Assembly (NCBI GenBank): GCA_016936215.1
Contig: JAFGPL010000014.1
Span: 1 to 41,188 of the forward strand
DNA: 41,188 nucleotides
From: Bacteroidales bacterium
Lineage (GTDB): Bacteria; Bacteroidota; Bacteroidia; Bacteroidales; UBA10428
Reading direction: 5' to 3'
Each line of letters starts with the position of its first letter. Position 1 is the stretch's first letter. The position numbers and the translations under genes were made by a program. The notes beneath the pieces were generated by a model that was not told where the DNA came from, did not search any database, and saw nothing but the letters and a program-made list of their open reading frames with translations. Of the stretch, positions 3 through 19,258 are shown piece after piece.

Positions 3-1499
3 AGTTCATTGTACAACGTATTGATGAATGCTGCAGGAAGTTCATCATACCTTTTGAACAACGATCTTTCTGTTCAAAACAACCTCACCATTCAAAACGG
101 AACTTTTGACTTGTCATCTGATGGTGGGATGACCAGCTATAATCTTAATATTGGAAACAGGTTATCAATTTCTGGAGGAAGTCTAAACGGAAGAAACGGT
201 CTGATTGAAATAGGTGAAAACCTGATTATTAACGGACTTGGAACTTTCACTTGCGGAACTGGAACAGTTTCAATGCTTTCGAACTCGGGTATCCGTACAA
301 TTGCTTCCAGAAACAATGCCTTTTATAATATTTCTTTCGATGGAAGTGCTTCTTTCAGGTTATCAGGCAATCTTTATGTGAATAATGATCTGACAATTTC
401 TGCAGGTATACTTGATTTGGGTGCTTCACCCTCATATAACGTTTATTTATCCGGCAACTGGATAAACAATGCATCTTTTGTTCCGCGGGCAGGAACTGTA
501 ATTTTTAATGGCACAAACCAAAGTATTACTAAAGCGCTTGATGAAACTTTTTATAACTTAACAATTAACAGTGGCAACATTCTTTTGAATACCGGTGTTA
601 ATATTGTAAACTTTTTTACACTTGTTTCTGGAGAAATTAACACGCAGGGCAATTCGGTCATACTTGGTACAGGAGTTTCTAATACCGGAAGCTTTAGTTA
701 TACATCGGGGACCATTATCGGGTATTTTGAGAGATGGGTGAATACCCTGGAAACAGACTATATTTTTCCGGTTGGGGTTTCCGGCAATACTAATGCAGCT
801 TACCTTAGGTTTATTACAAACCTCAATCCCGGTTCTGTGATGGCTTCGTTTATTGCTTCTGATCCGGGTACAGCAGGACTACCGGTTACAGATAACGGAA
901 TGCCTGTGGACGATGTATTTACTGATGGATTCTGGAGATTATCTTCAAAGAATGGTATGTCTTCTTCCGATTACAATATACATCTGAATGGGAACGGATT
1001 TATAAGCCATACAATAGATACTGCTACAAGAATATTAAAGCGGAACAACAATGGCAACTGGGCCATAGACGGTTCACATCTATCAGCAACAGGCGATGTA
1101 TGCCACAGAACAGGACTGAATGGTATTTCTGTAGTTTCGACCGATTTCTGTTTCGGTATTATAAGTTGCACAGGCGGCTTAATTGGTTATAGCGATTCTG
1201 TTTGTGCAGGTGATGATGTTGTTCCCTTTATAAATGTTGCCTTACCCACAGGTGGAAGCAGCTATACCTATACCTGGCAATATACTACAGAATTAACTGC
1301 CGTACCTGGTGATGCAAACTGGACAGATTTAACAGGGTCTAATTCACTTACATACGATTATGGTAATTTGTATAATTCAACACTCTTTATCAGAAGGACC
1401 AATGGGACAGGTTGCCCTGCTACATATTCAAATATTGTTTTAATCCATACATTCCGCAAACCTGCCCCTGGCCCTGTACACCATATACCAAACGATTAG
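3..1499 (+). CDS. 3' end of a large secreted beta-helix/PKD adhesin (truncated by window edge)
   Basis: The reading frame is open to the left edge, so the N-terminus and any signal peptide lie outside the window. The first ~230 visible codons are short strand-turn repeats rich in N, G, S and T (patterns such as YNLTINSGN and NNDLTISAG), typical of right-handed beta-helix surface proteins. A region from about residue 245 to 390 (FPVGVSGNT, then FWRLSSKNG) matches in layout the end of the last module of the giant adhesin at 8354-19258, so the two are paralogues. The last ~110 residues form a cysteine-containing Ig/PKD-like domain (WQYTTEL, FIRRTNGTGCP). The protein ends in FRKPAPGPVHHIPND with no T9SS sorting domain after it. 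Adhesion is inferred from architecture; no catalytic motif is visible. A second exported-protein gene begins 17 bases downstream. Confidence 0.8.
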   Translation, partial: SSLYNVLMNAAGSSSYLLNNDLSVQNNLTIQNGTFDLSSDGGMTSYNLNIGNRLSISGGSLNGRNGLIEIGENLIINGLGTFTCGTGTVSMLSNSGIRTIASRNNAFYNISFDGSASFRLSGNLYVNNDLTISAGILDLGASPSYNVYLSGNWINNASFVPRAGTVIFNGTNQSITKALDETFYNLTINSGNILLNTGVNIVNFFTLVSGEINTQGNSVILGTGVSNTGSFSYTSGTIIGYFERWVNTLETDYIFPVGVSGNTNAAYLRFITNLNPGSVMASFIASDPGTAGLPVTDNGMPVDDVFTDGFWRLSSKNGMSSSDYNIHLNGNGFISHTIDTATRILKRNNNGNWAIDGSHLSATGDVCHRTGLNGISVVSTDFCFGIISCTGGLIGYSDSVCAGDDVVPFINVALPTGGSSYTYTWQYTTELTAVPGDANWTDLTGSNSLTYDYGNLYNSTLFIRRTNGTGCPATYSNIVLIHTFRKPAPGPVHHIPND

Positions 1500-1516
1500 A
1501 AGCAGATAAACATCAG

Positions 1517-2413
1517 ATGAGATTAAATCCTGAAATACTGATTCGTGTGATTTTTGCAATAACTGCAAATAGCATATCTATTTATGCAGTATGTAATATT
1601 TATAGTGCAGACAGTTGCAATTTAAGAATACAAGCTGAGATAAATGAAGTTTCTTGTAATGGCTTTCATGATGGTTCCATTGATCTTAGTGTATCAGGAA
1701 AAGAAGCATATTCATTTCTTTGGAATACCGGATCAATCAATGAAGACCTTTATCATATTCCTGCAGGTATTTATACAGTTAAAATTAAGGCAGGCGATTG
1801 CATCGTTACCAGGTCATTTAAGGTTAAAGAACCACCTTTACTGCAATTAGCGATTGACAATCTGAAGAGTGTTACCTGCCCGGGGGGTGCCGACGGCGAG
1901 ATTTCGTCACATGCACAGGGCGGAACACCACCTTATATTTTTACTTTGATGGATAGTTTAACAAATCCTGAGGGTGTCTTCCGAAACCTTTATGCGGGCG
2001 TTTATAGTATAAGCGTAAAAGATTTTCAAAAATGTACAACCGGGTTAATCCTTGAAGTTAAAGAAGCGGAGATTTATACAGTAATCCCAGGGGGTAACTA
2101 TACGGTTTTTTCGGGGGAAGAATTCATACTTGATGCTGGTGAAGGTTTCTTGGAATACAAATGGAGTAATGGGGAAAATTCACAAATGATATCTGTTTTA
2201 TTGAATGCCCTGGAAGCTGTTCAACAAAATTTTATGGTAGAAGTTAAAGATAAAAACGGGTGTTGGTATACTTCCGGAGAAATAACCCTGAATATTTTAC
2301 CGCAAACTGTTTCAGATTACAACGATACAATTTCTAATGAGAATATTTTATTTGATGAAGATATAAGCCCTGAAGACGAGGTATCTACCCAGGAAGGATT
2401 AGAACCGGATTAG
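1517..2413 (+). CDS. exported SprB-repeat protein with acidic tail
   Basis: I start at the ATG at 1517 rather than further upstream, because it gives a hydrophobic N-terminal segment (ILIRVIFAITANSISIYAV) consistent with a signal peptide and avoids overlap with the preceding adhesin. Two SprB-type repeats follow (VSCNGFHDGSIDLSVSG... and VTCPGGADGEISSHAQGG...), each ending in the usual GxYTV/GVYSISVKD strand. After them comes a PKD/Ig-like strand region (VFSGEEFILDAGEGFLEYKWSNG). The last ~30 residues are strongly acidic. SprB repeats are known from Bacteroidota cell-surface proteins such as the gliding adhesin SprB. No T9SS C-terminal domain is visible. It lies 17 bases after the adhesin fragment and probably shares its transcript. 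A surface or periplasmic partner role is inferred. Confidence 0.75.
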   Translation: MRLNPEILIRVIFAITANSISIYAVCNIYSADSCNLRIQAEINEVSCNGFHDGSIDLSVSGKEAYSFLWNTGSINEDLYHIPAGIYTVKIKAGDCIVTRSFKVKEPPLLQLAIDNLKSVTCPGGADGEISSHAQGGTPPYIFTLMDSLTNPEGVFRNLYAGVYSISVKDFQKCTTGLILEVKEAEIYTVIPGGNYTVFSGEEFILDAGEGFLEYKWSNGENSQMISVLLNALEAVQQNFMVEVKDKNGCWYTSGEITLNILPQTVSDYNDTISNENILFDEDISPEDEVSTQEGLEPD

Positions 2414-2611
2414 CAGGTAAAGTATTGAATTACCTGGTATAAACTTCTTCTAAATTCTTTTTATACAGCACTTAGTTCAGAATCTTATAATATAATATTC
2501 CTGCGTGTCTCAGGAAATACAAATATTATCTGAATTGATAATTTTTAAATTCAAATAACCGGGCAATTCATTTTTTTTTATTAATATTATTATAAAAATA
2601 ATTTTACCATT
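2414..2611. other. AT-rich intergenic spacer
   Basis: No coding signal is seen. A 6-bp inverted repeat (TTCCTG at 2498-2503, CAGGAA at 2511-2516) could end the upstream transcript, but it lacks a T-tract. The 3' half is almost purely A/T and ends in a T-run before the next ATG, so it probably holds the promoter of the TPR gene, although no clean TAnnTTTG box is present. Confidence 0.3.
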
Positions 2612-3859
2612 ATGGCCACGAAAAAATACCGTAGTCTGTTTATTGCTGTTATTGTTATAATAATCGGTTTATTCACAACATTGTTTATTTCCCGTAACCG
2701 CATTAGTGAACATTATTTAGCAAAGGGTTCTGAATACCTTGAACAAAAAGAATTTGAAAAAGCAGTTAAATATTATAACAAGGCCATAAAATGGAACAAA
2801 CAGGCGGCCATGCCTTATCTTGGCAAAGGAAAAGCTTTGTATTATAAGGACGATATGTCTGCTGCCCTTGAAAATATTAACCTGTCTATTGCAAGGGACA
2901 GCATTTTTGCCGAGACTTATTATTACAGGGGATTGATTTTTGTGAAGCAAAACGATACCAAAAACTCACTGAAGGACTTTACAACAGCAATTTCACTTGA
3001 TTCGTTGTTCGCACTTGCCTATTATCAGCGGGGGCTTGTGAAAGCCGGAATGGGCGAGTTAAAAAAGTCCATAGAGGATTATAAGAAAGCCATAGAAATT
3101 GACAAAGATATGGTAGATGCATACCTGAAGAGTATCGAGGCCAAATCTGCCATGGAAGATTATATGGGCGCCATTGAAGATTATGACAGGCTTCTTGCTA
3201 TAGACAGTATGAATGCAGATGCATATTATAACAGGGGGTTTTTTAAAATGAGCCTGGCAAATTACATCTCAGCCATTGACGACCTGAGCAAAGCCATTAA
3301 AATCAAACCGGAACTGGGCGAAGCATATTACCACAGGGGAGTGAGTTACGCGCACGAAAAACAGCTTGAAAATTCAATAAAGGATTTTACCAAAGCCATT
3401 GAGTTGAAACACCGCCCGGGTAAAAGCTATTATAACAGGGCGCTCTCGTATTTGCACAGCCGTAACCCTGATAAAGCATTCGCCGATCTAAAAAAATCTG
3501 TTGAAAATGATGCCACCGATCCCCAGGCTTTCTTCCTGTTGGGGGTTACATCTTCTATGAAAGGGGATTTTAAAGGTTCAGTTGATTACTATTCAAACGC
3601 GATAAAATTAAACCCCGGTTTTGCCGATGCTTATTTTAACAGGGGGGTGTCAAAGGGAAACCTGAAACTTTATGAACAGGCCATTGCCGATTACAATAAA
3701 GCTATTGAGCTGAATAATAACTATGCAGATGCTTATTACAGCCGGGGTCTTTCCAAAATAAACCTTTTCAGGTATGATGATGGCTGTACCGATCTTAAAA
3801 AAGCCATAAGCCTGGGCAATAAGCCATCGGTTGAACTGGCTGCACAGTTTTGTAAATAA
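2612..3859 (+). CDS. membrane-anchored tetratricopeptide (TPR) repeat protein
   Basis: Residues 9-26 form one hydrophobic segment (LFIAVIVIIIGLFTTLFI) after a short basic N-terminus, so this is an uncleaved membrane anchor or signal anchor. The rest is 11 consecutive 34-residue TPR units, recognisable by AYYNRG near the start of helix A and a KAI-L/I-P/N/D ending (for example ADAYFNRGVSKGN and ADYNKAIELNN). TPR arrays are protein-protein scaffolds; no enzymatic domain accompanies them, so the partner cannot be read from the sequence. Only 24 bases separate it from the next gene, suggesting an operon with the YD-like protein. The repeats are all full length with no frame break. A scaffold facing the periplasm is the likeliest reading. 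Confidence 0.85.
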   Translation: MATKKYRSLFIAVIVIIIGLFTTLFISRNRISEHYLAKGSEYLEQKEFEKAVKYYNKAIKWNKQAAMPYLGKGKALYYKDDMSAALENINLSIARDSIFAETYYYRGLIFVKQNDTKNSLKDFTTAISLDSLFALAYYQRGLVKAGMGELKKSIEDYKKAIEIDKDMVDAYLKSIEAKSAMEDYMGAIEDYDRLLAIDSMNADAYYNRGFFKMSLANYISAIDDLSKAIKIKPELGEAYYHRGVSYAHEKQLENSIKDFTKAIELKHRPGKSYYNRALSYLHSRNPDKAFADLKKSVENDATDPQAFFLLGVTSSMKGDFKGSVDYYSNAIKLNPGFADAYFNRGVSKGNLKLYEQAIADYNKAIELNNNYADAYYSRGLSKINLFRYDDGCTDLKKAISLGNKPSVELAAQFCK

Positions 3860-3883
3860 TAAATGTATTAAAGAATAAATGCG

Positions 3884-4750: not shown

Positions 4751-4785
4751 GGAAGTATTATACCTTGGGTTTTAGAAGTTATTTC

Positions 4786-4919: not shown

Positions 4920-4976
4920 AATTAAATAATTTCCGAATTTTTCAATAATACTTTCTGTTTAAATCTTTAGGGATTT

Positions 4977-6020
4977 CTAATACCTGTTCAGCCAGCGGTA
5001 CCTTCTTGCATTGTCGCCGAATTTCATGCCCAGCATTAGTTCGTGCGAACCAATGCTGTATTTGGATATTGCGCTAAGGTTATAATCGAATGCATAACCG
5101 AAATAAAACTTATCGAACCTGGCCCCACCCATGATAATCACAGATGAACCTCCACCACCGATTGATTCTTCGCTTAGACTGTAACTTCCACCTGTACGGT
5201 AAGATAATCCCGCCCAGTAATCTTCCCTGATGTATACCTTTCCGTTGAAATCAAGCTGTGAAACGAAATTTTCAGTAGTTTTTAAAAGAAAGGAAGGTTC
5301 AATATAAACATTATCGTTGATCATAAAGCGGTAGCCGGCCATCGCAAAATAATGCCTTACCATTTTAAAATCTGCCCCGTCTTGGTCGGTGAGTTTCAGG
5401 GTATTTTCGAAAAGCTGAAGGGCAGAAAAACCGGCATACAGGTTTCTGTCTGAGTAATATACGCCAAAATTGGCATCCGGTATCATTGCCGATTTATCCA
5501 TGGAATAGTAAAAGGCATCATCGGTATATAACCTTATTTTCTCATCATCAATCCTAAACTGGTATCCGGTGATCGAAGCGCCGAAAGAAAGTTGCGATTT
5601 CCTGAAAGTAAGATGATAGCTGTAAGTATACTGTGCCCCTGTACGATTAAAAGCCCCGTTCCAGTCACTAAAAACATAAATACCCATGCCGACCCTTCCG
5701 CTGCGTGACATTATCCTTCTTCTTCTCTTAATGGATGCGCTGCGTGAGATAAAACTGTTTTTAAGCAACCTGGTCTGGGCGCTGAGGGCATATGTAGAAG
5801 GGGCATCCTTCAGCCCAAGCCACTGCTCGCGCCCCGTGATATTGATGCCGGTATAGCCTTCATGCCCCGCTATTGCAGGGTTAAGCAAAAATCCATTGAG
5901 CATATACTGACTATATATGGGCAACTGCTGCGCTTTTATACCTGTTTTTAGTAAAAACATACTAAGCGCGAGGATATTAAGTATTAGTAACTTACGGATA
6001 TGTAACCTTTTTTTTATCAA
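4977..6020 (-). CDS. PorP/SprF family type IX secretion outer-membrane protein
   Basis: The 347-residue product has an N-terminal signal peptide (LLILNILALSMFLLKTGIKA) followed by the family hallmark at about residues 31-52: QQLPIYSQYMLNGFLLNPA, then IAG. GREQWLGLKDAP is also typical. The remainder alternates strands and turns up to the C-terminal LGMKFG, as expected for an outer-membrane barrel of ~14 strands. Family members (PorP in Porphyromonas gingivalis, SprF in Flavobacterium johnsoniae) sit in the outer membrane and are needed to export or anchor particular T9SS cargo; recognition of type B sorting domains is the established pairing. Here the gene is last in a cluster with a type B sorting-domain protein and a giant adhesin, with 86 bases to the upstream gene, so it is probably their dedicated partner. 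Confidence 0.92.
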   Translation of the reverse strand: MIKKRLHIRKLLILNILALSMFLLKTGIKAQQLPIYSQYMLNGFLLNPAIAGHEGYTGINITGREQWLGLKDAPSTYALSAQTRLLKNSFISRSASIKRRRRIMSRSGRVGMGIYVFSDWNGAFNRTGAQYTYSYHLTFRKSQLSFGASITGYQFRIDDEKIRLYTDDAFYYSMDKSAMIPDANFGVYYSDRNLYAGFSALQLFENTLKLTDQDGADFKMVRHYFAMAGYRFMINDNVYIEPSFLLKTTENFVSQLDFNGKVYIREDYWAGLSYRTGGSYSLSEESIGGGGSSVIIMGGARFDKFYFGYAFDYNLSAISKYSIGSHELMLGMKFGDNARRYRWLNRY

Positions 6021-6106: not shown

Positions 6107-7126
6107 TTATTTTATTATATTAATTGTTCCCACCAAAGGTTTTGAATTCCTATACTTGAGGTCTATCACATAATAATATGAATCCATCGGCATCTCTTTA
6201 CCGGCTTGCGACCGTCCGTCCCATACATTAAACGGGTCGGGGTTTTCCACGTGATAAATCAGCCTGCCCCACCTGTCAAAAATTTCAACCACAGCCCCCG
6301 GGAAAAGGTCAATATGTTCGAGTATCCATTTTTCATTCGGACTGCCATGTCCCAGGATGATGGTGTTAGGAATATTCGCGAAAAATTTTTCCACATCGCA
6401 CTGGAATACTACCAGGGTGTCGGATGCACGGCACCCGTTAAAGTCGGTTACCATAACCGAGATAGTGTCAGCCAGGGTACTGGCCGGCTCAATACTTATC
6501 GGGTTGGAAATCTCACCGGTTGACCAGTTGTAAAGTGCAAAGAAACCTGCATCAAGGTCTAAGGTAGATGTACCGCAAAGGGAAGTATCCCGTCCAAGGT
6601 CAACTATCGGTAAAGGATTAACGATAATGGTGGCCGAGTCGAAATTATAACAACCATCGGTACCCGTGGCACGCACCCAGACAATTCCTGCCTCATCTGT
6701 TGTAAGGCTGTTGCCGGTGCTGCCATCGTTCCATTCAAAAGTGAGCGGGTTGAAATAGTCTGCTTCAGGACGTATGGTGATGAAATCATCTTCACAAATC
6801 TCAATCCTGTTGCCTATATCAATATCCGGGGCGTTAACGCTCAGGTATGCTTCTACAGGAGTACCGATACAGTTTGCATCGGTTACCTCAACCACTTCAA
6901 GACGATGTGTACCCACATTCCAGTTCCATTCGACTACAACAGTATCGCTGTAATCTTCAACAATAACACCACCTTCTATTGTCCATATAAAGGTGGAGTT
7001 TTCATAACCTTTTACCCCATAGGCTTCCCTGCTGCCCGCACAGGCATACGGTAACGTCTGACCATGCAGGGCAACAGGGATTAGTGCCATGAGAATAAGG
7101 GTAATTATGTTAAATTTTGTAGCCAA
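6107..7126 (-). CDS. small PKD-type surface protein with T9SS type B sorting domain
   Basis: A signal peptide (IITLILMALIPVALHGQ) is followed by LPYACAGSREAYGV, then three Ig/PKD-like domains separated by proline-rich joints (VNAPDIDIG, VNPLPIVDLG). From about residue 250 to the end is a gliding-motility-associated C-terminal domain: NTIILGHGSPNEKW, VEIFDRWGRLIYH, a WDGRS turn, a SYYYVIDL strand and the final GTINIIK. This is the type B signal for export through the T9SS. It lies directly between a small PKD-like protein (52 bases upstream) and PorP/SprF (86 bases downstream). Its small size compared with usual type B adhesins suggests an anchor or adaptor for the operon's giant protein, which has no sorting domain of its own; that role is inference. 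Confidence 0.85.
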   Translation of the reverse strand: MATKFNIITLILMALIPVALHGQTLPYACAGSREAYGVKGYENSTFIWTIEGGVIVEDYSDTVVVEWNWNVGTHRLEVVEVTDANCIGTPVEAYLSVNAPDIDIGNRIEICEDDFITIRPEADYFNPLTFEWNDGSTGNSLTTDEAGIVWVRATGTDGCYNFDSATIIVNPLPIVDLGRDTSLCGTSTLDLDAGFFALYNWSTGEISNPISIEPASTLADTISVMVTDFNGCRASDTLVVFQCDVEKFFANIPNTIILGHGSPNEKWILEHIDLFPGAVVEIFDRWGRLIYHVENPDPFNVWDGRSQAGKEMPMDSYYYVIDLKYRNSKPLVGTINIIK

Positions 7127-7178
7127 TGGAACTTTATAATCTGTTTATACGGTGAAAATTAATGAGTATAAACCAGAA

Positions 7179-8147
7179 TTATTCAGCCCAGTTATTAGGT
7201 ATATGATAAATCGGACCGGTTACAGGTGCAGGGTTAACCCTGATTGTAATGGTTTCGGCCGTTGTATCATACCATGTCCAGCCGGTTGCCAGTTCGGTAG
7301 GATTGCCCAGATAGTCTGATTTACGGGAAATCCTGTCGTTCACTGCGTTCAGACTGTAAATATAAACTGTCTGCCTTTTCACATTGTCATCGGGGTCTTC
7401 GATAGAGATAAAACCACCGGTGGGTTTTGCAAGGTTATAGGTGCCTGCTGCCGCACCAACTGTTTGCTGCAGACCGGTTGCACGGGGATATTCCAGCGCG
7501 TTGCCTGCGGCACCCAGTTTGGTGGCATTGTCATCATCAAAATAGGCAACTACGGCGTCAGTTACATCCCTGGTAGTGATCTGCAGGTGCCAGTCGAGCT
7601 GCCAGCTCCTGATACCGGTTAAAGTAGCCTGTACATTATCGCTCAGCCTTGCATCGCCTTCGCATACCGTAAGGTTAGTACCAATAATGGTACCGGGATT
7701 GTCAGCTGTAAATGTTACAGTAGGACTTGCAATAACTGATACATAAACGTTGGTATCGCCAGAGCAGCCACCAAATGCTGCAGGGGCAGTTTCAGTTACT
7801 GTTACATTGTAGGGGCCGCCGGCAGTACCTGACCAGTCAACCTGCACCCATACATCGTTAGTTGTCTCGCCGGCATCTACTGTACCTGCACCGCCCGGTA
7901 CATTCCAAGTCCATGTGAAGTTCGGAGTTAAAGCCCAGGTACCCACCGCTGTGTAATTCGGGTGAAAATAAGCATCGGGTTTCACATACAACCGGGTGGT
8001 AGACCCAACCGTTACAGAGTCAATCTCGGTAGCAGCGCCGGAAATGGCTGTATAATCCGAAACCTCTACCTGTGCAAAAAGACCATTCGCTACAAACAAT
8101 GACATTGCAATGCCTGTAATCAATTTAAGTAAATTACCTCTCTTCAT
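7179..8147 (-). CDS. small exported PKD-like protein with GPxYHIPN tail
   Basis: I choose the ATG at 8147. Upstream in-frame ATGs exist at 8153 and 8183, but 8147 gives a normal signal peptide (MKRGNLLKLITGIAMSLFVA, cleavage after GLFAQ). The ~300-residue mature protein has an N-terminal Ig-like domain with several WxW strands (WTWNVPGG), a cysteine-bearing central part (VTVTETAPAAFGGCSGD), and a second domain ending near ITIRVNPAPV. It ends GPIYHIPNNWAE, the same tail type found on the giant adhesin just upstream and on the adhesin at the window's left edge. No T9SS sorting domain or enzyme motif is visible. The gene lies 206 bases after the giant gene and 52 bases before the sorting-domain protein, so it is part of the same surface-protein cluster. 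The function is unknown. Confidence 0.78.
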   Translation of the reverse strand: MKRGNLLKLITGIAMSLFVANGLFAQVEVSDYTAISGAATEIDSVTVGSTTRLYVKPDAYFHPNYTAVGTWALTPNFTWTWNVPGGAGTVDAGETTNDVWVQVDWSGTAGGPYNVTVTETAPAAFGGCSGDTNVYVSVIASPTVTFTADNPGTIIGTNLTVCEGDARLSDNVQATLTGIRSWQLDWHLQITTRDVTDAVVAYFDDDNATKLGAAGNALEYPRATGLQQTVGAAAGTYNLAKPTGGFISIEDPDDNVKRQTVYIYSLNAVNDRISRKSDYLGNPTELATGWTWYDTTAETITIRVNPAPVTGPIYHIPNNWAE

Positions 8148-8353
8148 AATCATAAAATTTAAAATTAAACAATAGCAATTCATATTTTATTTATAATAGT
8201 TACATGTTACAAGTTTCAGTTTTTTAGTACTGAGTTGCATTTTCAAGGTTTATCTGCAACTTCATGTTTTTTACCTTTATATCGTAAATCCGAACCATTG
8301 GTTTCATTTTTTTGAGTAACATATCAAATTTTTATATTAAAATATCTATATGT
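8148..8353. other. AT-rich spacer inside the surface-protein operon
   Basis: These 206 bases separate the giant adhesin gene from the small PKD-like gene on the - strand. They hold no open frame of note and no clear terminator hairpin. The gap is larger than the others in this cluster, so an internal promoter or RNA-processing site is possible, but I see no exact TAnnTTTG box. Confidence 0.25.
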
Positions 8354-11300
8354 TTATGGAACATTGTCATTAGGTATATGGTGTGCCGGTCCCGGTTCTG
8401 GTAATTTAAATACCCATACAGGCAGTACTGAAGGCGAAGCTGCAGTACAACCGGAACCATTGGTATAAGTTACACTTATGGTATGGTCTTCATAACCATC
8501 CCATCGTATTGTAATGCTGTTATTGGTTGTGCCACCCCCTGCAGTAATTGTATGATCTGATGTACCATCTTCATTGGTTACCGTCCATACATAATTACTC
8601 ATACCCGCTTCCGTAGTATATACCACGGTTGTTCCCTGGCAAATGGTGTCAGATCCGGTGATGGTGGGGATGGGCAGGGGCGTAACCGTTACATTGGCCA
8701 GATCAGCAATTACCTGGCTGCAAATATATTCGTTGGTAACCAGTATGTTATATATAGTGGAAATGGATGGATCAATCAATATATCAATATCACCTCCCGG
8801 GCCGCTGCTAACTGCGGCTCCTGCATTGCTGTTATCGCTTTCAAGCCTTAATTGCAAAGACAACCCGGCTGCAACCGCTGTTATGGTAATAGTTGCCGTG
8901 TCACCCACGCAGATTGACGGGTCGCTTACTGAATATCCGATTGGTGGCAGGGGATTAACAGTAACGGGTAATGTATTGTCTCGGGTTTCTGTACCTGCCG
9001 TTTCATCAACCCTGACTGAATACACTCCTGCCGTGGTCCATTGCACAACTACCGAGTCGAGATTGCCTGCCCCGATGATATTTCCACCACCGTCAGGTAA
9101 TGACCATGAATATGTGTGCCCGGAAAGCAATGGTGTACGGTATACTACTGTTTGATTGTTACATACCGGGGTTGAACCAGAAACAAGCGGATTGGGTATA
9201 TCAGAAATCTCTACTTCATATTGATCAGTTGTAACATTGCACCCTCCTGAACTAACCGTTTCTGTTAGTTGCACCCAGGCTGTTCCATAAGACGATGGAA
9301 AGTTAACAGTAATGCGATAGGTACCTTGTCCCGATGCAATGGTTGCACCGGCAGACACTGCCCAGGAATAAGTATGTCCCGGTATATTGCCTGTACCGCT
9401 TGAATATACAACACCCGTTTCCCCATACCCAACAGTGGTATTACCTGTTATTGAAGGATTAGGAGACTCGTTCAGGGTAATAGTTACTGTGTCGGTAAAG
9501 TACCGTATTCCTGTGCTTCCTGTGGCATCACTTATATAAGACATATTAAATTTGTATTCTCCCGGGCCTTGTGAAGCCAGCGGTTCCAATGCATTTGAAA
9601 CCATTATTGTATAAGGTGAGTTGGCAATATTGTTAATGGTAGTCTCATTTGCACCATTTATCCTGTATCTGATGGTCCAGGGTGAGGATCCTGTTAAATC
9701 TATACTGATCCCGGTTGATGTACCGTCGTCGCAAATGCTGGAGTCACCACTGGTAATCGTTACTGTAGGTAAACTCTCTACCCCAATGGTAAAATAATGA
9801 TTGCCATTTACAGAAACTGAGGGATTTGTTTGAATTGTACCAGACACCTGACCACCGTCAATAATTACATTGCCACGATTAGTCCATGCAATTCCGTTCC
9901 ATTCAACAATACGTAATTTTGCACGGCTATCGGCATCGGCTGGGATTAAGCCACTTTGGTCATCCCATCGTATTCTGACATTTGCTGTTGCGACAGGGCC
10001 ATTTATACGCCAGTATTCATTATTGCTAACCATATCTATGGGTGTTACGACACTTAAAGGATCGAACCCATCATCACCGGGATTATGATTGTAATATTGT
10101 GCCATGTAATCTCCTGCAGCGGTAACATTTGAGATATAAATATTCCCGTATCGGGTTCCATTTCCGTTCCCAACGGGGAAACTAAAATAAGAACCGGAAT
10201 TAATACGTTTCTGCAATGGACCGTTTACAAAGGATGAACTTCCGCCGCCAACTACTGCTGAAGTAGCGGAATAATTCAGACTTAACAGATTGGTTGCATC
10301 GGTATTGATGTTTCCAAGGGTAAGGTATAAATTACGGTTTACATCAACTTGGCCGTTTCCGTCAAGTGTAACTCCAGCAGCATTGTTAATCTGAAAATGA
10401 TAAAACTGTTCGGTTGTTGCACCATTAGCAACTGTTAAGGTTTGCGCAGCCGCGCCATTAAATACTACCCGGCCTGTTCCCGGAACAAAACCGCCGGTTG
10501 CAGAAGCAGAGTTGTCGGTCCAGTCGCCCAGAATGGTGAGCGTTTTGTTATGCAAGGTATTGTTCAGTGTACCATCATTGATGGTCAGGTCACCCAACAC
10601 GCGCATGTTTTCTGCGCTCATGTATTTCACACCTGAACCCGAGAAGATGACATTTTGATAAGGCTTGTAATCATTGCCCGGTTTCAGCGGCAGCGTTGCA
10701 GGTACAGCACTGTTGTTATAAAATTCAATGGTGCTGGCCGTATTCTCCATGAATTCATCATATACACCGGCCGGAAAGATAAAACTGCCGGCTGCAGTGC
10801 TTGTCAGGTTAATAGTTCCTCCACCCCTGATATGGCCCAGACTGTGGTATAGTGTAGTACCTACAGCAAGTGTTCCGTTAATATTAACCGAATAGGCAGT
10901 CTGGCTGTTTGAATTTAATGTTATGGTATGTCCTGCAAGAATAACTACTGCATTACCCTGTGGGTATGATGGGGCAGGGCCACCGCTGCCGTCGGAATTA
11001 AGTGTCCATGCGTTCGGGTCTGTCCAGTTACCTCCGCTGGTGGCATTGCGGCTGTAATATATAGGCATGTCCTGAAAATTGGGGCTCGGGGCAATATTCA
11101 CACCACAGGTATACTCTCCGTAAATATAATTTACACCTGTAAGGGAGAAATAATCAGAAGCAGCATTTACAGCACCTTCGGATGGTACATCCCATGAAAA
11201 GATATCAGGTGTGTACCTTCCTACAACATAATTCGTTTCGTCGGGCAATGCATCACCGCCATCGTAATGGTATTCATGATCAACTGTCAAGCCGCTGAAA

Positions 11301-14300
11301 CCGGTGCTTACAGCATACCAATAGTATTGCAGTTCATTGGTTGCAGCAGGATTTTCGTAGGTTGACGGATGCTTGTAATTAACCGGTCTTACCAGAATGG
11401 TTCCGTTAGCGCCGTTAGATGTGACATTGTAACGTGCAGGAGTGTATTTACCGGCAACACCTATCGGAAAAGTAAAGTCGGCAGCGCCCGCGGGGTATAA
11501 CTTTTTAACCCCCTGATCGCTGACAACACCGTTCAGCATGATCATGTTGTCGGCATTGGGCGTACCGCCAATGGTGGCATTGGTGCCGAATGTCAGCAGG
11601 TAATCGTCAATATAAAGGTTTCCGCTGCTAAAAGTAAGCTGACCATTAATTACACTGTTATCAATCATTTCAATACCCAATGGATTGTATAATGTAATAT
11701 TCCCGAACTCGCCAAATCCATTTCCTGAGATTGTTTGTACCTGTGAGCCATTCATCATGATGCCTCCGGTTGGGGATGGACTGGTATGAATGGCATTGTT
11801 TTCAATGTTACCAATTACCGTTATGCTGTTACTGCCATCATTCAATGTTCCTGAGTTGATTGTCAGATTACTATTGACCTGAATGTTTGTATTGGCAGAT
11901 AGTGTTAACGAAGTGGTTGGGTTAACGACCAGATTTGCAAAATTGGTCAGGTTACCGGCAACTCCGGTAATTAGTTGTGCAACTGAGCCATTGAATGTAG
12001 TTATCTGGGTTAAGCTGCCGGGTTGATAACCTCCGGTTGACACCCCTGTACCAGCGTTGCTATTATTGTTAATGAGCGTACCTCCAATTGTTAAATCCAA
12101 GCCGTTAGCACGATAATCGGAGTTTCCTTCAATGGTCAGGTTGTTTAAAACTGTCATTGGGTAAATACGCTGATTAGCAGTCTTAGCTGTCGAACCATCT
12201 ATAATTACATTCCACAATGGTATGGCACATACATTATTTGATTGGGTATTATCTGCAGCCGTACTAGATCCGATCCTTACAGTTCCCCCAGTAACTGAAT
12301 AGGTTTCGGGTACCAGATATAAATCATTATAAAGAGGGTTATTGAAGTTGTTTCTTATAATAAGTGTACCTCCCGACATTGTAAAACTGCTTCCGGAGTT
12401 TAATACCTCGAACATGCTCCGTGCAACATTGCGTTGCCGACCATAAATAATTACCTGTGAAGTACCTCCCTGTGTATAGTTCAAAGAGCCTGTTGAAATT
12501 GTCAAAGGTCTGCGGATTTGCCCCATAACTATCAGTCTCCCGTTACCGGTTACGATTATTTCAGGGTTTCCTCCCGACGCATATTCTATGTCGTTATTAT
12601 AATTACCTGTACCAATGTTAACTACTCCATTGTTTATTATTTCCAACCTTCCTGCAAGTATTAAGTCACCGTCATTGCTCGTGGTACCAATTGTAACTGT
12701 TCCCTGGTTTACCGAAAGAGCTGCCGTGGTAGGGATTGTAAATGCCGTGGTAGTTGAAAGGGTAAATGCCAGCGAGGAATTGGATACCCTGAAAGTACCA
12801 TTGTTCAGCACCAGCGCAGCACCCCCTGTATATGACAAAGTAAGGTTATTGGCTGTAACATCAAGGATAGTATTTCTTGAAGTGCCTTTATCAACATAAA
12901 GGATATTGAAATCGTTAGTCCCGGTACCGGAGATCGCCTTATTTTCATTACCGGTGAAATATACGTTTCCGAATAAGGTGGCCGATGTGTTCAAATCAAA
13001 TGTGCCATTGTTGTTGAGGTTACCATTAATATAAAGAAGGTTAGTAACCCCGGTGCCTCCGTTTCGCACATTAAATTCTGCCCCGCTGGAAATATTTATG
13101 TCATTGTTTACGTATATTGTCTGAGCAGTTCCGTTATAATATTGTAATGTACCGCTTAATATATTGATATCGCCTTCAACAGTTAGTATTCTCGTTGCAG
13201 TTGTATTTAAACGAGTGGTTGCACTTAAATCTGCCCCGTTAATCGTATAATCCCCAAAAACAGTAAGATCGGTATTGGGCATGGATATATATCTGCCCGA
13301 TGTTGGCGAAATGGTAAGGTTATTATAATATGTTTTAGTTGTAGGCACCACAAAATCTTGTGTTCCAGTATTATAATACTCAACTGTTCCGCCTCCTGCT
13401 ATAAGGAAATTACCAAAATCACCTCCGGGAAAGGTTGCAGTCCCGGATGAAGAAGAGATTTTCAATATTCCTGTACCGGTAACTTTGCTATCTGGAATAG
13501 CTCCAAAATTGTGTCCGATTGTAGTTGTAATGTCCAGTTCAGAGCCAGAATTGATCTGCAAACCGCCTATTGATATGTTATCATATCCGGCTGGAACTGT
13601 CACAATGTGATTAATACCAGAACCATCACCAATTACTACCGGATTATTTAGTCCTGGTAACACAGATGCGTTTGCCGGACCGGCATTTGAGATAGTTGAC
13701 CAGGTGGATAACTGGTTCCAGTCGCCTGATGTGCAACTGTAATATACTGTTACAGGTTGAAAAGCGTCTATTTCGCCTGCTGTGAAATCTCCACTTGCAT
13801 AGTTAACATTGTTAAACCTTATATCGTTTGAAGCATCAACAACCTGAGATATGTCGTTAATGTAAGTCCATGAAAACGGATTGTAAACACCGGGAATATA
13901 ATTGGCTTCTGTTCCCCTGCCTACCAGGTCTGAATCAACATAACGGTATGTATGCGAAACCGATGAGATACCGGCGAACCCTGTTTGGGTTATTTTCCAG
14001 TAGTAATCAAGTGAGTTTGCTGAGGTAACAAATGGATTAAACTGCGCCACCGGTTTAATATTCAGCGAACCCCAGGTGGACGGGGCAGCATTGAACTGAA
14101 TGGTAGCTGGCGTATAATCTGAAGCTGTACCCACCGGAAAAACAAATGGGGTAGTAGAATTATAATCTTTGGTCACCCCGCCATCACTCATATTGCCTGC
14201 AGTACGTATCATCTTGGTGCCGGAAAAAACAGCAGTGGTGGCAGGATATAAGGCGTCGTATATGTTGGTGGTTGCACCAAGCGTGAGGTTATAAGTATTA

Positions 14301-17300
14301 ATATCAAGCAAACCGTTGGCCAGCCTGAGGTTACCGGATATAGTCTGATTGGCTGTCAAGGAGGCTGTACCTGCTGTTTTATTAATCACCAGGTTGCCAA
14401 AGATGCCGGTGCCTAAACCTCCTATACTTTGGTTTACAGTTCCGTTAACAAATACACCACCCCCTGTTTGACTTGTATGTGTCCCTGAGTTGGTGATTTG
14501 TCCTGCAACATAAATATCGTGTCCCATATCCTGAAGGAAACAGCCTCCGTCAACTGAAAGGTTATTAAGAACCGTAAGATCTTGCGTTATTGAGGTATTG
14601 CTTGAATTTTCAATAGAAAGGTTATAAAGCCCTGTTGTAATGGTGCCGTTATTGGAAAAAATTTGTCCTTCAGTACCATTAAAAATTGTGGTATTAGTGC
14701 CGGGTGTGTATGTTGTTCCAACAGGTATTGTAAAATTCCTGCCAACCTGTATATCAACATTATTTGGTCCCGATGTCAGCACGGCTGTTGTTTGCAATGT
14801 AAGATCATTTTTTACTATCAGGGGTTGTGCTGGAATAGCTGTCGGAACTGTTGCATTTGCTGTATAGGTACGAGGTTGTGCTGAACGTGTGGTTACATTG
14901 GATATGATATTTAAATCCCAGAAAGGCGCTGTGGATGCAATATAGGCATTTCGCGCAGCGGGTATTGTAAGGTTTATGGTACCTCCGGTTACATTAATAT
15001 TTGTCGGATTGGCTCCAATAACTATACTGAAATCACTGCCCGATCCGCCGCCAATAGGATTTGGCGACAAAATGTTAATGGTACCTCCTGAAATATTGAT
15101 GGTATTATCAGGGTAGGGCAATGTCCAGGCACCATATACATTCATCCCGCCCAGGTTGGGAAGGTCTTCACCGCGAATTGTCAATTCACCGCCAGACATT
15201 GTAAAGGCGCCGCGATGTGTACCGGCAACATAAGAAGTTCTTACACATTCAGTTGTAATGGTACCACCTTCAATTAAAATCGAAGCAGTGGTCCTGGAAA
15301 CCAGTCCTTGTTTGCTGTTGTCATTTAAAGTTGAGTTGGTGGATACTTTTAACCCTCCGTATATAATTAATGCTGTTCCATCGTCTGTATTGGCAACAGT
15401 TGAGTATGTGAGACTGCCTCCATCAAGCCAAATCATGGCATCTTCATCAATATTGTATAATTCTTCTTCAGCTAAAGACGGCAATACGATATTCTCACCA
15501 AGACGTACTGTTCCGGCCAGCAGTCCTAAAGCCTGGGGATTTGGTATACTCGGTGGTGTGCCGGACGGATTGAGGTTGGTCCTGCCCCACAGGTTAAAAT
15601 ATGAGGGGTCGGAAGCATCTATGTTCAGGATAAAGGTCTGGTCTGTACCTTTATCTATTTCTATCCTGTAAAAACGGGACAATCCGTTTAACTCCAGGTT
15701 TTGATGACTGGTTGGATTATTGAAAACAACATCTACCCGGTTATTAGGGTGATTGGCACTGCCATATGCCGGAGCTGCAAGGTTTGTAAAGCGCACATCT
15801 CCATTATTTGTAAAGTCGCCCTGAATGATAAACCGGTGCGCATTGTTATTACCGGTACCTACATTACCCGTGCCTAAACGTATCAAACCATTCGCTTCAA
15901 CAAGCACGTTGCCATAAACAGTCAGGTCGAGCCTTGTTGTAGAAGCATTGTTGTTAATACTGAATGTGCCTTGCTCAACGGTCAGGTCTCCGTTTACAAT
16001 AAGGTCACCTAAAACTGTAGCAACGATAGCACTGCCGGAAAGGTTAAAAATCAGGTTATTGTATGTTAACCGGTTAAGGTCAAAATTTGCAGAATTGTAA
16101 TATTCAACAGTACCTCCATCAGCAGAAACAAAATCATCATAAGTTCCGGCAGGAAAATTACCTGTAGATAACCTCATCCAGCCTTTACCTCTAACGTCGC
16201 CAAAATTATGACCCGTAGTTCCCCCAATATCAAGTATACCGCCTTCATTAATTTGTGTTGACATCACAGAATACCCGTTTGCTGTGGTAGTAACTGTGCG
16301 ACCGTTCAGTATTACCACCCGGTCATCGGCACCAGGGACTGAGGGATTGACCGACAAAGTACCCGAGGGGTCAGTGGTCCATGTAGAGGCTGTATTCCAG
16401 TTCCCAGATTGGTATGAATAAAAGGTGTATATGGGTTCGCGTGCAGTCCATTGTGCATCCAGGTAAGATGTTCCTGATACCGTTATGGTGTTGGTGGTAG
16501 CATTTACGCTACCGGAAGGGGTTAACCAGGTAGAGGTGAAAGCTGCAGGTTCATAAATATTTTCATCGCCGCCCGAAATATCTGCATCATTATATATAAA
16601 GGAAAGAGATGCGTTGATGGATGATAATCCTGAAGAGCTCATGATCCAGTGCCGTCCAAGGTCGGTAATATTGGCGGGAGGGGGACCAGGTGCCAGTGTC
16701 CCGTCAACAAGCAATGAAATAATGCCTGTACCACTAACGGAGGCAGACAAAGCGCTGATCTCCATAGGTGTATAATACCCGTTTGTTCCTACAGGGTATA
16801 CCATTACAAATCCGGCGGTAGTTGAGCTTTGCCTTATAACATTGCCATTACCGTCGCATACGATCATGTGGCTGTTGTCGAAACTGCCTGTTGTGGTAAT
16901 GGTGGCCCCATCGGCAATGGTGAGGTTTGCACTGCCCGAACCCAGGCTAAGGTTACCGTTGTTCAGCGAAAGGTTATTGAGAATGGAAATGTCATCCTGG
17001 ATGGTTTTAATATTGCCTCCTGAAATGATAAGATTTCCGTAATCTGCTGCAATTATTGCCTGTGCGCCTGCATAACCATAGTTTATTGTTGATGCAGCTC
17101 CAAATAGCTCTGTTCCGGTGAAAATATTTGTTGAATTCACGTTGTGGTTAAGCGTTCCGCCATCATCTACCTGAAGAATGCCAGTAGCAGCAAGTGTGAT
17201 ATTGCGTGTTTCAGTTAATTCACCACCGTTTTGAACCTGAATGGATGAATAGGCGCCGGTAACATTCCACACTGCTGAAGAAGTAGTCATGGTATGGCCG

Positions 17301-19258
17301 GATTGAATGGCAAATATCTGGTAAGGATCGGTGAAATTGGCAGGGGTGCTTCCCCCGCCGCCTGCATTGGTATTCCAATTTGCCAGGGTGTTGGTGTTAC
17401 CTGATCCCTGTGAATAATATATCGTAGAAATGGTAAGATCCGGAGATATATAAACCGAATTTCCGGGGCCACAACTGCCGTTGTTGTTGCCAAACCAGCA
17501 GTCTGCTTCATTTACAACATCGAAGGTGAGATTGTTCAGACCTGTACCTGCCGGGGCTGTGACATCCAGATTATAGGTGCGTGATTCACCCGGTGCCAAA
17601 TCATTGGCATCAACACGTACAAGGTAATCGGGGTCTGCATTCCATTTTACACCAATATTAATATCAGGTGAAGCATTTGTCCATGTGGCAGTTCCGGTAT
17701 TTGTAACGGTTACTGAAACAGTGCGTGTTTCACCGGCATACCATGATGTGGAACCTATGTCCATGGCAGTGAACAGTGCCTGAAATGGGGGTTCCCAGGT
17801 GATGATTACCTGGCCGTTGGCGCCGGCACCGCCGGCCCTATTTCCGTCTCCTGCACCTCCTCCACCACCTCCGGGTATGCTGCCTGATGAACCATTGTTA
17901 CCTGAAGAGCCACCATTGCCGCCAATACCAGCACCATTTGGCGCGGGATCGGCAAAACGTGTTGTCCATGGGTTATCACCAGATGAGCCATTTGATTCAT
18001 AACCTGCAGAAGAACCTCCTGGACCACCCTGACCAGTATTGTTATTTCTTCCAGCGCCCCCATCACCTCCACTATATTTTATAGTGCCAACGCCACTGCT
18101 GGCAATGCCGCCTGCACCACCAACTCCACCATTTCCACCAACAGGAGAAAATCCTCCATTTCCTCCTTTGGCTAATACTGTACTTACATTTCCGAACCAG
18201 GTATCTCCTCCGTTTCCGCCATTGCCAGTGCTGCCAACTAAACCTGTGCCAACTGTAAAGGTATAGCTGGTTCCGGGAGTCACGGCCAAAGTGGAGCTGC
18301 TATAGGCACCTCCACCACCTCCACCGCCACCATCATTGTTTGTTGGATTACCGCCACCGGTACCGCCTGCACCCCAGCATTGAACAGTAATGGATGTTAC
18401 ACCTGAGGGCACTGTAAAAGTTCCGGATGTTGTATATGATCGGCCAGCCCAGGTGATCCTGACTAAACCTTCTCCTCCATCACCACCTTCATGGTTGCTA
18501 CCATCATCGCAAAAGGCACCACCACCGCCACCACCATAATTAGAACCTTGGTTACCATTTCCTTCAGTAGTGGGGGCCCCATTTCCACCATCTCCGCCAT
18601 CTATAGGAGAACCAATACCAGCATTTCTATTTGTTGCATTTCCTCCATTTCCAGAAGAACCAGCGCCACCGCCACCTCCGCCACCTCCGTTTGCATCAGT
18701 GCCATTCGCTCCGTTACCTCCGGCATAAACAACATCGCCCCTACTGTTTGCTGATGATCCTTGCCCACCCGGCCCGTCGCCGTCGTATGCAACTGCAGAA
18801 CCACCTTCACCGCCCTCGGCATAAACAGTGTTTATATCTCCAAACCACGAAGGTTGACCATCTTCCCCATCTCCCTCATCACCGTTACTCGACTGAGCCA
18901 CAGTTACCGTGTAAATTTCTCCGGGATTAACAGTTAGCACACTTCTTGCATAGGCTCCGCCAGCACCACCTCCCGCACCTGCATTATCTAACCCGTCATC
19001 AGTTCCTCCCCCACCGGCGCCTCCGCCTCCCCAGCATTCAACAATGATTTCTGTTACATCTGGCGGAACCGTGAATGTGCCATTGGTTGTGAAGGTTTCT
19101 GTGATCGTCTGTCCGGAAGCAGCGTTTGCAAAAGAGAGTATAATAATAAAGAGTACGGATTTAAGTATTAACAGCTTCGGTGTTGAAGCATATCGTGTTG
19201 CCTTTAAATATTTTAATATCTTCTTCTTCAAATTCAAAGTAATATTCAAATCTGCCAA
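8354..19258 (-). CDS. giant modular secreted adhesin (3634 residues), no sorting domain
   Basis: The first ~50 residues contain a basic stretch and a hydrophobic segment (LLILKSVLFIIILSFANA) ending near ASGQ, read as a long signal peptide. Next come two glycine-rich domains (about 55-270 and 272-488), each opening with GTFTVP and a CWGxGG strand. A CARDB/Ig-like domain follows (about 490-610, WYAGETRTVSVTVTNTG). Then come four beta-helix modules, each opening with YYS/YSY...W...W; the openings fall near residues 613, 945, 1837 and 2732, so the later modules recur about every 890 residues. Modules carry FPVG and YYW signatures near their ends. PKD-like and Ig-like domains occupy about 3160-3620. 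The protein ends FKLPEPGPAHHIPNDNVP, with no type A or type B sorting domain. Cell-surface adhesion is inferred from architecture. It heads a cluster with a type B protein and PorP/SprF. The single unbroken 10.9-kb frame argues for selection. Confidence 0.88.
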   Translation of the reverse strand: MADLNITLNLKKKILKYLKATRYASTPKLLILKSVLFIIILSFANAASGQTITETFTTNGTFTVPPDVTEIIVECWGGGGAGGGGTDDGLDNAGAGGGAGGAYARSVLTVNPGEIYTVTVAQSSNGDEGDGEDGQPSWFGDINTVYAEGGEGGSAVAYDGDGPGGQGSSANSRGDVVYAGGNGANGTDANGGGGGGGGAGSSGNGGNATNRNAGIGSPIDGGDGGNGAPTTEGNGNQGSNYGGGGGGAFCDDGSNHEGGDGGEGLVRITWAGRSYTTSGTFTVPSGVTSITVQCWGAGGTGGGNPTNNDGGGGGGGGAYSSSTLAVTPGTSYTFTVGTGLVGSTGNGGNGGDTWFGNVSTVLAKGGNGGFSPVGGNGGVGGAGGIASSGVGTIKYSGGDGGAGRNNNTGQGGPGGSSAGYESNGSSGDNPWTTRFADPAPNGAGIGGNGGSSGNNGSSGSIPGGGGGGAGDGNRAGGAGANGQVIITWEPPFQALFTAMDIGSTSWYAGETRTVSVTVTNTGTATWTNASPDINIGVKWNADPDYLVRVDANDLAPGESRTYNLDVTAPAGTGLNNLTFDVVNEADCWFGNNNGSCGPGNSVYISPDLTISTIYYSQGSGNTNTLANWNTNAGGGGSTPANFTDPYQIFAIQSGHTMTTSSAVWNVTGAYSSIQVQNGGELTETRNITLAATGILQVDDGGTLNHNVNSTNIFTGTELFGAASTINYGYAGAQAIIAADYGNLIISGGNIKTIQDDISILNNLSLNNGNLSLGSGSANLTIADGATITTTGSFDNSHMIVCDGNGNVIRQSSTTAGFVMVYPVGTNGYYTPMEISALSASVSGTGIISLLVDGTLAPGPPPANITDLGRHWIMSSSGLSSINASLSFIYNDADISGGDENIYEPAAFTSTWLTPSGSVNATTNTITVSGTSYLDAQWTAREPIYTFYSYQSGNWNTASTWTTDPSGTLSVNPSVPGADDRVVILNGRTVTTTANGYSVMSTQINEGGILDIGGTTGHNFGDVRGKGWMRLSTGNFPAGTYDDFVSADGGTVEYYNSANFDLNRLTYNNLIFNLSGSAIVATVLGDLIVNGDLTVEQGTFSINNNASTTRLDLTVYGNVLVEANGLIRLGTGNVGTGNNNAHRFIIQGDFTNNGDVRFTNLAAPAYGSANHPNNRVDVVFNNPTSHQNLELNGLSRFYRIEIDKGTDQTFILNIDASDPSYFNLWGRTNLNPSGTPPSIPNPQALGLLAGTVRLGENIVLPSLAEEELYNIDEDAMIWLDGGSLTYSTVANTDDGTALIIYGGLKVSTNSTLNDNSKQGLVSRTTASILIEGGTITTECVRTSYVAGTHRGAFTMSGGELTIRGEDLPNLGGMNVYGAWTLPYPDNTINISGGTINILSPNPIGGGSGSDFSIVIGANPTNINVTGGTINLTIPAARNAYIASTAPFWDLNIISNVTTRSAQPRTYTANATVPTAIPAQPLIVKNDLTLQTTAVLTSGPNNVDIQVGRNFTIPVGTTYTPGTNTTIFNGTEGQIFSNNGTITTGLYNLSIENSSNTSITQDLTVLNNLSVDGGCFLQDMGHDIYVAGQITNSGTHTSQTGGGVFVNGTVNQSIGGLGTGIFGNLVINKTAGTASLTANQTISGNLRLANGLLDINTYNLTLGATTNIYDALYPATTAVFSGTKMIRTAGNMSDGGVTKDYNSTTPFVFPVGTASDYTPATIQFNAAPSTWGSLNIKPVAQFNPFVTSANSLDYYWKITQTGFAGISSVSHTYRYVDSDLVGRGTEANYIPGVYNPFSWTYINDISQVVDASNDIRFNNVNYASGDFTAGEIDAFQPVTVYYSCTSGDWNQLSTWSTISNAGPANASVLPGLNNPVVIGDGSGINHIVTVPAGYDNISIGGLQINSGSELDITTTIGHNFGAIPDSKVTGTGILKISSSSGTATFPGGDFGNFLIAGGGTVEYYNTGTQDFVVPTTKTYYNNLTISPTSGRYISMPNTDLTVFGDYTINGADLSATTRLNTTATRILTVEGDINILSGTLQYYNGTAQTIYVNNDINISSGAEFNVRNGGTGVTNLLYINGNLNNNGTFDLNTSATLFGNVYFTGNENKAISGTGTNDFNILYVDKGTSRNTILDVTANNLTLSYTGGAALVLNNGTFRVSNSSLAFTLSTTTAFTIPTTAALSVNQGTVTIGTTSNDGDLILAGRLEIINNGVVNIGTGNYNNDIEYASGGNPEIIVTGNGRLIVMGQIRRPLTISTGSLNYTQGGTSQVIIYGRQRNVARSMFEVLNSGSSFTMSGGTLIIRNNFNNPLYNDLYLVPETYSVTGGTVRIGSSTAADNTQSNNVCAIPLWNVIIDGSTAKTANQRIYPMTVLNNLTIEGNSDYRANGLDLTIGGTLINNNSNAGTGVSTGGYQPGSLTQITTFNGSVAQLITGVAGNLTNFANLVVNPTTSLTLSANTNIQVNSNLTINSGTLNDGSNSITVIGNIENNAIHTSPSPTGGIMMNGSQVQTISGNGFGEFGNITLYNPLGIEMIDNSVINGQLTFSSGNLYIDDYLLTFGTNATIGGTPNADNMIMLNGVVSDQGVKKLYPAGAADFTFPIGVAGKYTPARYNVTSNGANGTILVRPVNYKHPSTYENPAATNELQYYWYAVSTGFSGLTVDHEYHYDGGDALPDETNYVVGRYTPDIFSWDVPSEGAVNAASDYFSLTGVNYIYGEYTCGVNIAPSPNFQDMPIYYSRNATSGGNWTDPNAWTLNSDGSGGPAPSYPQGNAVVILAGHTITLNSNSQTAYSVNINGTLAVGTTLYHSLGHIRGGGTINLTSTAAGSFIFPAGVYDEFMENTASTIEFYNNSAVPATLPLKPGNDYKPYQNVIFSGSGVKYMSAENMRVLGDLTINDGTLNNTLHNKTLTILGDWTDNSASATGGFVPGTGRVVFNGAAAQTLTVANGATTEQFYHFQINNAAGVTLDGNGQVDVNRNLYLTLGNINTDATNLLSLNYSATSAVVGGGSSSFVNGPLQKRINSGSYFSFPVGNGNGTRYGNIYISNVTAAGDYMAQYYNHNPGDDGFDPLSVVTPIDMVSNNEYWRINGPVATANVRIRWDDQSGLIPADADSRAKLRIVEWNGIAWTNRGNVIIDGGQVSGTIQTNPSVSVNGNHYFTIGVESLPTVTITSGDSSICDDGTSTGISIDLTGSSPWTIRYRINGANETTINNIANSPYTIMVSNALEPLASQGPGEYKFNMSYISDATGSTGIRYFTDTVTITLNESPNPSITGNTTVGYGETGVVYSSGTGNIPGHTYSWAVSAGATIASGQGTYRITVNFPSSYGTAWVQLTETVSSGGCNVTTDQYEVEISDIPNPLVSGSTPVCNNQTVVYRTPLLSGHTYSWSLPDGGGNIIGAGNLDSVVVQWTTAGVYSVRVDETAGTETRDNTLPVTVNPLPPIGYSVSDPSICVGDTATITITAVAAGLSLQLRLESDNSNAGAAVSSGPGGDIDILIDPSISTIYNILVTNEYICSQVIADLANVTVTPLPIPTITGSDTICQGTTVVYTTEAGMSNYVWTVTNEDGTSDHTITAGGGTTNNSITIRWDGYEDHTISVTYTNGSGCTAASPSVLPVWVFKLPEPGPAHHIPNDNVP

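Follow-up and report, generated by a model that had tools for sequence, protein, structure and literature searches.

It is puzzling how giant adhesins such as P0003 are held at the cell surface, because this protein has an apparent signal peptide (by eye) but no T9SS sorting domain (CTD). CTDs of types A, B and C are named in the available text of a review (PMC10202324), and the available portions of three other papers describe type B proteins as being held by dedicated PorP/SprF carriers (PMC12618676, PMC9143113, PMC12635249). P0003 is encoded in the window, the whole stretch of 41,188 nucleotides from a Bacteroidales bacterium that was analysed here. The minus-strand genes around it run in the order P0003, P0002, P0004 (type B CTD) and P0005 (PorP/SprF).

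Three C-terminal tails in the window

The initial annotation reported a GPxxHIPN ending on three exported proteins, P0001, P0002 and P0003, and this is correct (Table 1). A degenerate DNA pattern for the motif has three sites in the whole 5,315,248-base genome, all of them these tails, and the reversed control pattern has no match in the same 5,315,248 bases. The 40-position tail profile, which itself contains the P0001–P0003 tails, gives 12 rows in this genome at E<=10, with the three tails at 3e-13 or better. The other nine rows have E values from 1.1e-4 upward. Eight of these end by profile position 29 and the ninth, at profile positions 29–39 in a 37-residue frame (E 1.56), is at chance level.

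The absence of a T9SS sorting domain from the three proteins is borne out by Pfam and NCBIfam at E<=0.01, using the models for type A (PF18962/TIGR04183) and type B (PF13585/TIGR04131). P0001 has no Pfam or NCBIfam family whatever at this threshold, and no fimbrillin family is among the Pfam and NCBIfam matches of P0001–P0005 at E<=0.01. The three proteins were also said to share little else near the end. This does not hold, as the tail contexts have in common a last Ig/PKD-type strand followed by a 'V.V.P.P' linker that is also present between PKD repeats. The frame after P0001 (1412–2413, plus strand) encodes SprB repeats (PF13573, E 2.3e-14); its protein has no further Pfam match at E<=0.001 and ends EVSTQEGLEPD, without the tail.

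Table 1. Location of the tails, their proteins and the adjoining type B and carrier genes within the window
Feature	Coordinates	Strand	Remarks
P0001, 3' end of a CTD-less adhesin	3..1499	+	truncated at contig left edge
P0001 C-terminal tail, FRKPAPGPVHHIPND	1452..1496	+	DNA pattern and tail profile
P0005, PorP/SprF family outer-membrane carrier	4977..6020	-	E 7.2e-73
P0004, 339-residue type B CTD protein, proposed anchor	6107..7126	-	CHU_C at residues 251-335, about 6122-6376
Proposed docking domain at the mature N-terminus of P0004, PKD-like, first strand apparently absent	6773..7060	-	
P0002, small two-domain Ig-like protein	7179..8183	-	homologues, fold model
P0002 C-terminal tail, VNPAPVTGPIYHIPNNWAE	7182..7238	-	DNA pattern and tail profile
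P0003, 3634-residue CTD-less giant adhesin with PKD_6 domains	8354..19258	-	Pfam
P0003 C-terminal tail, FKLPEPGPAHHIPNDNVP	8357..8410	-	DNA pattern and tail profile

P0004 has a type B CTD by both models, CHU_C in Pfam (E 1.7e-14) and TIGR04131 in NCBIfam (E 4.3e-10), each above cut-off, and the PorP/SprF gene P0005 adjoins it. The layout is common across loci: a giant CTD-less adhesin, a small Ig-like protein, a short type B CTD protein and a PorP/SprF protein. Where loci are long enough, giant and small protein alike end in the tail, with the type B gene next. Two other frames lie in the window. Another CHU_C protein, with PKD domains, is encoded at 39594–40982 on the minus strand, distant from the tail operon, and a frame of 1501 residues at 32558–37063 on the plus strand is without a Pfam family at E<=0.001.

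Distribution and position of the tail

Homologues of P0002 are found in 18 of the 22 other genomes of its family and in none of 17 genomes from other families in the order. Identity to P0002 is 27–54% for 17 of the 18 P0002-family sequences, and across 18 tail sequences T322 and I325 are invariant and G323, P324 and Y326 are conserved at 90% or more. Judged from these alignments, the tail is the best conserved segment of fast-evolving proteins. NCBIfam gave three stray matches among the 23 members of the P0002 family, each to one member.

The 40-position profile (A3) was built from 37 tails. It matches 20 of the 23 family genomes at E<=0.01, among them G404 by an internal junction only. Within the order, at least 68 of 295 genomes match at E<=1e-3, and full matches reaching HIPN occur in at least 27 of the 295, as read from the matches listed. 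Partial matches end near profile position 28 and are mostly within long open frames. In a phylum sample of 395 genomes, searched at E<=5e-4, full matches are found solely in the window's own genome, with partial matches in nine others. A relaxed DNA pattern matched 100 of the 395 phylum genomes, but its reversed control was about as widespread (by eye), so this pattern is uninformative outside the family.

In 72 loci and the window, with 2416 unique open frames in all, every one of the 85 full-tail matches (E<=0.01) ends five or fewer residues from the stop, a count that informs position rather than frequency, since 37 of the 85 were training sequences of the profile and most loci were fetched by tail or P0002 homology. 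The profile search suggested in the initial annotation returned full matches that are C-terminal and that recur in the order; neither of the outcomes that would have spoken against the tail, full matches scattered inside proteins or restricted to this locus, was seen.

Conservation and a C-terminal position on probable surface proteins would also be features of a cleavage or covalent-attachment signal, whether sortase-like or for attachment to a glycan. Since 80 of the 85 full matches leave 0–2 residues ahead of the stop, the tail is not followed by a hydrophobic or charged trailer, and a signal of this kind is very improbable. A role in sorting, docking or cleavage had been proposed for the tail. 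Nothing pointing to cleavage was found, and docking is the best fit of the three.

The N-terminal domain of the type B partner

In 27 loci a domain with the consensus LPxACAGSxExYGVxG..NSxFxW, referred to here as the docking domain, opens the type B partner shortly past an apparent signal peptide (by eye). In P0004 it aligns with PKD_6 at profile positions 14–82 of 82, a weak match under the family cut-off (E 0.062), and 13 of the 27 docking domains match PKD_6 at E<=1, the best at 3.3e-4. From sequence comparison it resembles a PKD domain whose first strand is absent. Larger proteins in six loci contain relatives that are uncut, and these have a strand before the Cys (VYPKPIPVFVDKVENAC, VFPVPAPVFIEKDDNGC, VWPLPEPVFVEKTEHVC). 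Internal junctions matched by the tail profile continue to a Cys within 22 residues in 50 of 51 cases (median 10), and an ITG-like strand is present at 25 of the 51 (for example VNPLPVPTITGPATVCASS and VNPLPVPTITGPATVCASSTGNVYTT). Linker, strand and domain are uninterrupted in ordinary PKD chains (NPLPVPTITGPATV-CASS). Near the stop the tail is VNPAPVTGPIYHIPN, and the anchor starts QTLPYACAGSREAYGV. Set against the continuous PKD junctions, these two ends make the chain look as if it were severed between strand A, which would be the tail, and strand B, in the docking domain.

The tail is therefore proposed, with a probability of about 0.7, to be a beta-strand donated in trans that links the giant, the small protein and the T9SS anchor in order. 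We infer tail-slot binding, the order of the chain and the export route as follows. A PKD/Ig-type domain would be split just after its first strand (A). The A strand and its linker would form the C-terminus of one exported protein, and the remainder of the domain would form the extreme N-terminus of the next. The tail would occupy the open slot, joining the two proteins non-covalently. In the operon the links would run from P0003 (and P0001 in trans) to P0002, from there to the type B anchor P0004 and on to the PorP/SprF protein P0005, with P0002 as a possible middle link. A single T9SS type B anchor would in this way keep the CTD-less adhesins at the surface, and they may also be exported together with it.

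Internal PKD junctions match the profile over its first half, which could also mean that the tail is a non-functional remnant of a PKD repeat protein that stops just past the next linker. This is scarcely credible, as full matches, including PIYHIPN, are C-terminal in every case among the 72 loci and the window, and conservation of the segment in many families of the order is not what drift would yield. The same match to PKD junctions weighs against a short signal for T9SS export or sorting that replaces the CTD and is recognised by either the translocon or the PorP/SprF carrier. Such a signal would suit P0001–P0003, which are without a CTD match and adjoin type B and PorP genes, and it would suit some tailed giants for which the fetched stretch contains no type B gene (L130, L131, L138). 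Yet the proteins with tails match no CTD profile, the partner opens with a PKD-like domain that seems to miss exactly this strand, and the tails of giant and small proteins differ at a fixed position (see below). An export signal is quite improbable on these grounds.

At E<=1e-5 the docking profile matches at least 129 of the 295 genomes of the order, many of the matches being in long repeat proteins. A match is present in all 27 genomes with a full tail and in at least 102 of the 268 others at this threshold, although the profile was built partly from those 27 genomes. A search with a narrower docking alignment (A8) found eight loci, seven in Bacteroidales and one in Bacteroidota, all from MAGs. 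By hhalign the first domain of P0002 is itself a relative of the docking domain (probability 93.4%, E 2.5e-7). P0002 is less cleanly short-ended than P0004, because about 20 extra residues are present at the N-terminus ahead of the domain (by eye). The middle proteins in L186, L190 and L191 open with a short-ended PKD-like domain (by eye), that of L190 being QTSAQDTVCVGATGVKYWV.

Structure models

In L046, a locus from a relative, the small protein and the type B gene share one frame and were therefore folded as a read-through single chain. The AlphaFold model used L046 and 24 other sequences and passes through the signal peptide; L051 and L048 were excluded from the alignment (A6) because of their long spacers. 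The mean pLDDT of the tail is 82 at residues 161–170 and 70 at 171–180, with a strand at 170–172. Block means are 86–97 for the docking domain and 24–59 for the small domain before the tail, which is largely unfolded. Among the 50 VIA alignments listed, for which the ranges give first and last aligned residues only, 37 begin at model residues 157–166, with the tail, six begin at 214–217, without it, and seven begin elsewhere. The match to 7nit_C was aligned as a single domain over the range 161..293 (Z 8.4, rmsd 2.3, 82 residues). This one model of a read-through chain predicts that the tail lies in the first-strand slot of the docking domain.

When P0002 is folded alone, the last Ig strand is at 274–280 and the tail, at 281–297, is without a strand; 49 of the 50 alignments listed end at or before residue 286 of 297. 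The suggestion that the tail might be the last strand of an ordinary Ig domain is not supported by this model, in which the last strand precedes the tail. The pLDDT of the tail is 86 and 76 in P0002 alone, no lower than in the read-through model. As a test of docking pLDDT fails, since the unbound control tail scores equally high, and the confidence of the model alone proves nothing.

Pairing of tails with type B genes

A total of 43 type B genes were examined, two of which have no upstream gene in view. For 38 of the other 41 the upstream product ends P-x-T-x-x-[IV], the divergent cases being L141, L189 and L195, and these 38 pairs were kept; most of the type B loci had been picked for their tails or for P0002 homology. 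A fairer set is provided by the nine docking-hit genomes without a listed full-tail match (G566, G618, G663, G483, G654, G499, G571, G466 and G565). The nearest upstream Ig-type frame is tailed in six of eight (G618, G663, G483, G571, G466 and G654), the ends are divergent in G499 and G565, and the ninth genome has no upstream gene in view. In G483 the tail frame is about 1.2 kb away and in G654 the tail is on a contig-end fragment. The link between the tail and a type B partner that was proposed earlier has good support.

All 31 tails adjoining a type B gene have I or V after GP, against 18 of 50 elsewhere (Fisher p 5.7e-10; the 54 non-adjacent tails are 18 with I/V, 32 with another residue and four that the pattern leaves unassigned, which are outside the Fisher table), a contrast that is partly between small and giant proteins rather than one of position, because many of the non-adjacent I/V tails are on small proteins. 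In the tails of the giants GP is mostly followed by Q, A, S, E or P. This difference between type B-adjacent and other tails suggests, at the level of sequence, two kinds of joint, with different sockets for the giants and for the small proteins. In operons with several small proteins (L141, L142, L194, L198 and L199) there is a different tail at each step. In L141 (G453, 3–7723) there are five proteins ahead of the type B gene, with drifting ends (PVTGPMYRQPNQ, PVTGPVYHLPNN, PTPTTGTINHVAP, KAPKPKTYHIKNK and TTAEPKIIHLRDLNKK).

These differences bear on whether there is an ordered chain at all. The type B anchor might have one site that serves every tail, with P0002 as another client. The GPxxHIPN motif common to the tails of P0001, P0002 and P0003 fits with a single site, as does the frequent presence of multiple tails per genome. 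Against it are the uniform I/V of the tails next to the anchor and the other residues of the giants, the change of tail at each step in operons with several small proteins, and the relatedness of the first domain of P0002 to the docking domain. Binding of all tails to one site is therefore rather unlikely. The reading in which the links are ordered draws on the relatedness of the P0002 domain, the short-ended middle proteins and the stepwise different tails.

Across 37 operons (the 38 pairs minus L194), the distance correlations are 0.28 between tail and docking domain and 0.27 between tail and CTD. Covariation of tail and docking domain beyond that with the CTD of the same protein is not significant (partial Mantel r 0.16, p 0.11, n=37), and the partial Mantel value for tail and CTD is about equal (0.14, p 0.12).

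Anchors may be shared among adhesins, since there are tailed giants without a nearby type B gene and P0001 is on the opposite strand. The giants in question, in L130, L131 and L138, are a tandem pair with no type B gene within the fetched stretch, suggesting an anchor elsewhere. A second, shorter class of tail is present in L185, L186, L190, L191 and L192, for example PITPPIFHF, PSTSPIFHF and PITSGITHY. The partners of this class are type B proteins that start Q..DTVC or similar.

CHU_C proteins elsewhere in the genome

Ten further C-termini near PorP/SprF genes of the same genome were used as a control. CHU_C is above cut-off in eight of these, one is type A and one has a sub-threshold match only. 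Six of the eight CHU_C proteins are long, four of them at 1444, 1924, 1362 and 2009 aa and two, truncated by contig ends, at no less than 1427 and 1509 aa; the remaining two have 572 and 375 residues. The tail is absent from the same-strand upstream gene in all four cases in view (L204, L207, L209 and L213). Of the other four CHU_C genes, two have their nearest upstream gene on the opposite strand and two are themselves cut by the contig start. Since CHU_C in the six long proteins sits on the adhesin itself, the usual form in this genome looks to be a single protein with both adhesin and CTD. The operon in the window looks like a split form of this. The 375-residue protein of L213 (5874–6998, minus strand), with a terminal CHU_C (E 8.3e-8) and no obvious signal peptide (MKRIEKYELIERYLLG), is encoded after another same-strand gene.

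Relation to known systems

The operon is similar to SprB–SprF of Flavobacterium johnsoniae, described in the source text available as a giant adhesin with a type B CTD and a dedicated PorP/SprF carrier as surface anchor. The difference is that adhesin and CTD are on separate proteins in the window. Donation of a strand would be analogous to the assembly of chaperone-usher pili and of type V fimbriae (FimA/Mfa1), in which, from the portions of the sources available, the next subunit supplies the strand that an Ig-like domain lacks. A C-terminal donor strand has been proposed for FimA, and the available text of the same paper calls the donor end unclear (PMC5954841). Unlike in these pili, the receptor in the window would seem to be made strandless rather than uncovered by a protease, and the units are T9SS-linked PKD adhesins rather than pilins. 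Among the open-licence papers listed on T9SS, donor strands, type V pili and grappling hooks, no title or abstract opening was found to be about such a tail.

If the strand is donated as proposed, donor-strand joining would extend beyond pili to T9SS adhesins. A strand-donation tag of this type would explain how one set of giant adhesins is held at the surface, and it would allow tail-bearing proteins to be listed from sequence. The tail peptide of about 20 residues and the domain of about 85 are a testable pair. In SpyTag/SpyCatcher-type split Ig domains the terminal strand and the remainder are likewise on two chains, which are engineered and are locked by an isopeptide bond. More broadly, and with odds somewhat below even, CTD-less giants may be clients of a short type B 'adaptor' through a C-terminal beta-strand, with the anchor shared in trans and the links in gene order. 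This would be a further T9SS route, in which adhesins are exported and anchored through the sorting domain of another protein.

The sole PDB match of the docking profile at E<=0.01 is the grappling hook protein GhpA of Aureispira (PDB 9flp and others), with an E value of 5.4e-19 that sums many weak repeats, none significant singly. GhpA structures hold Foldseek ranks 1–7 for the read-through model and 7 of the 50 VIA rows listed. GhpA is one chain of 5898 residues with its domains in series, unlike the split proteins of the window.
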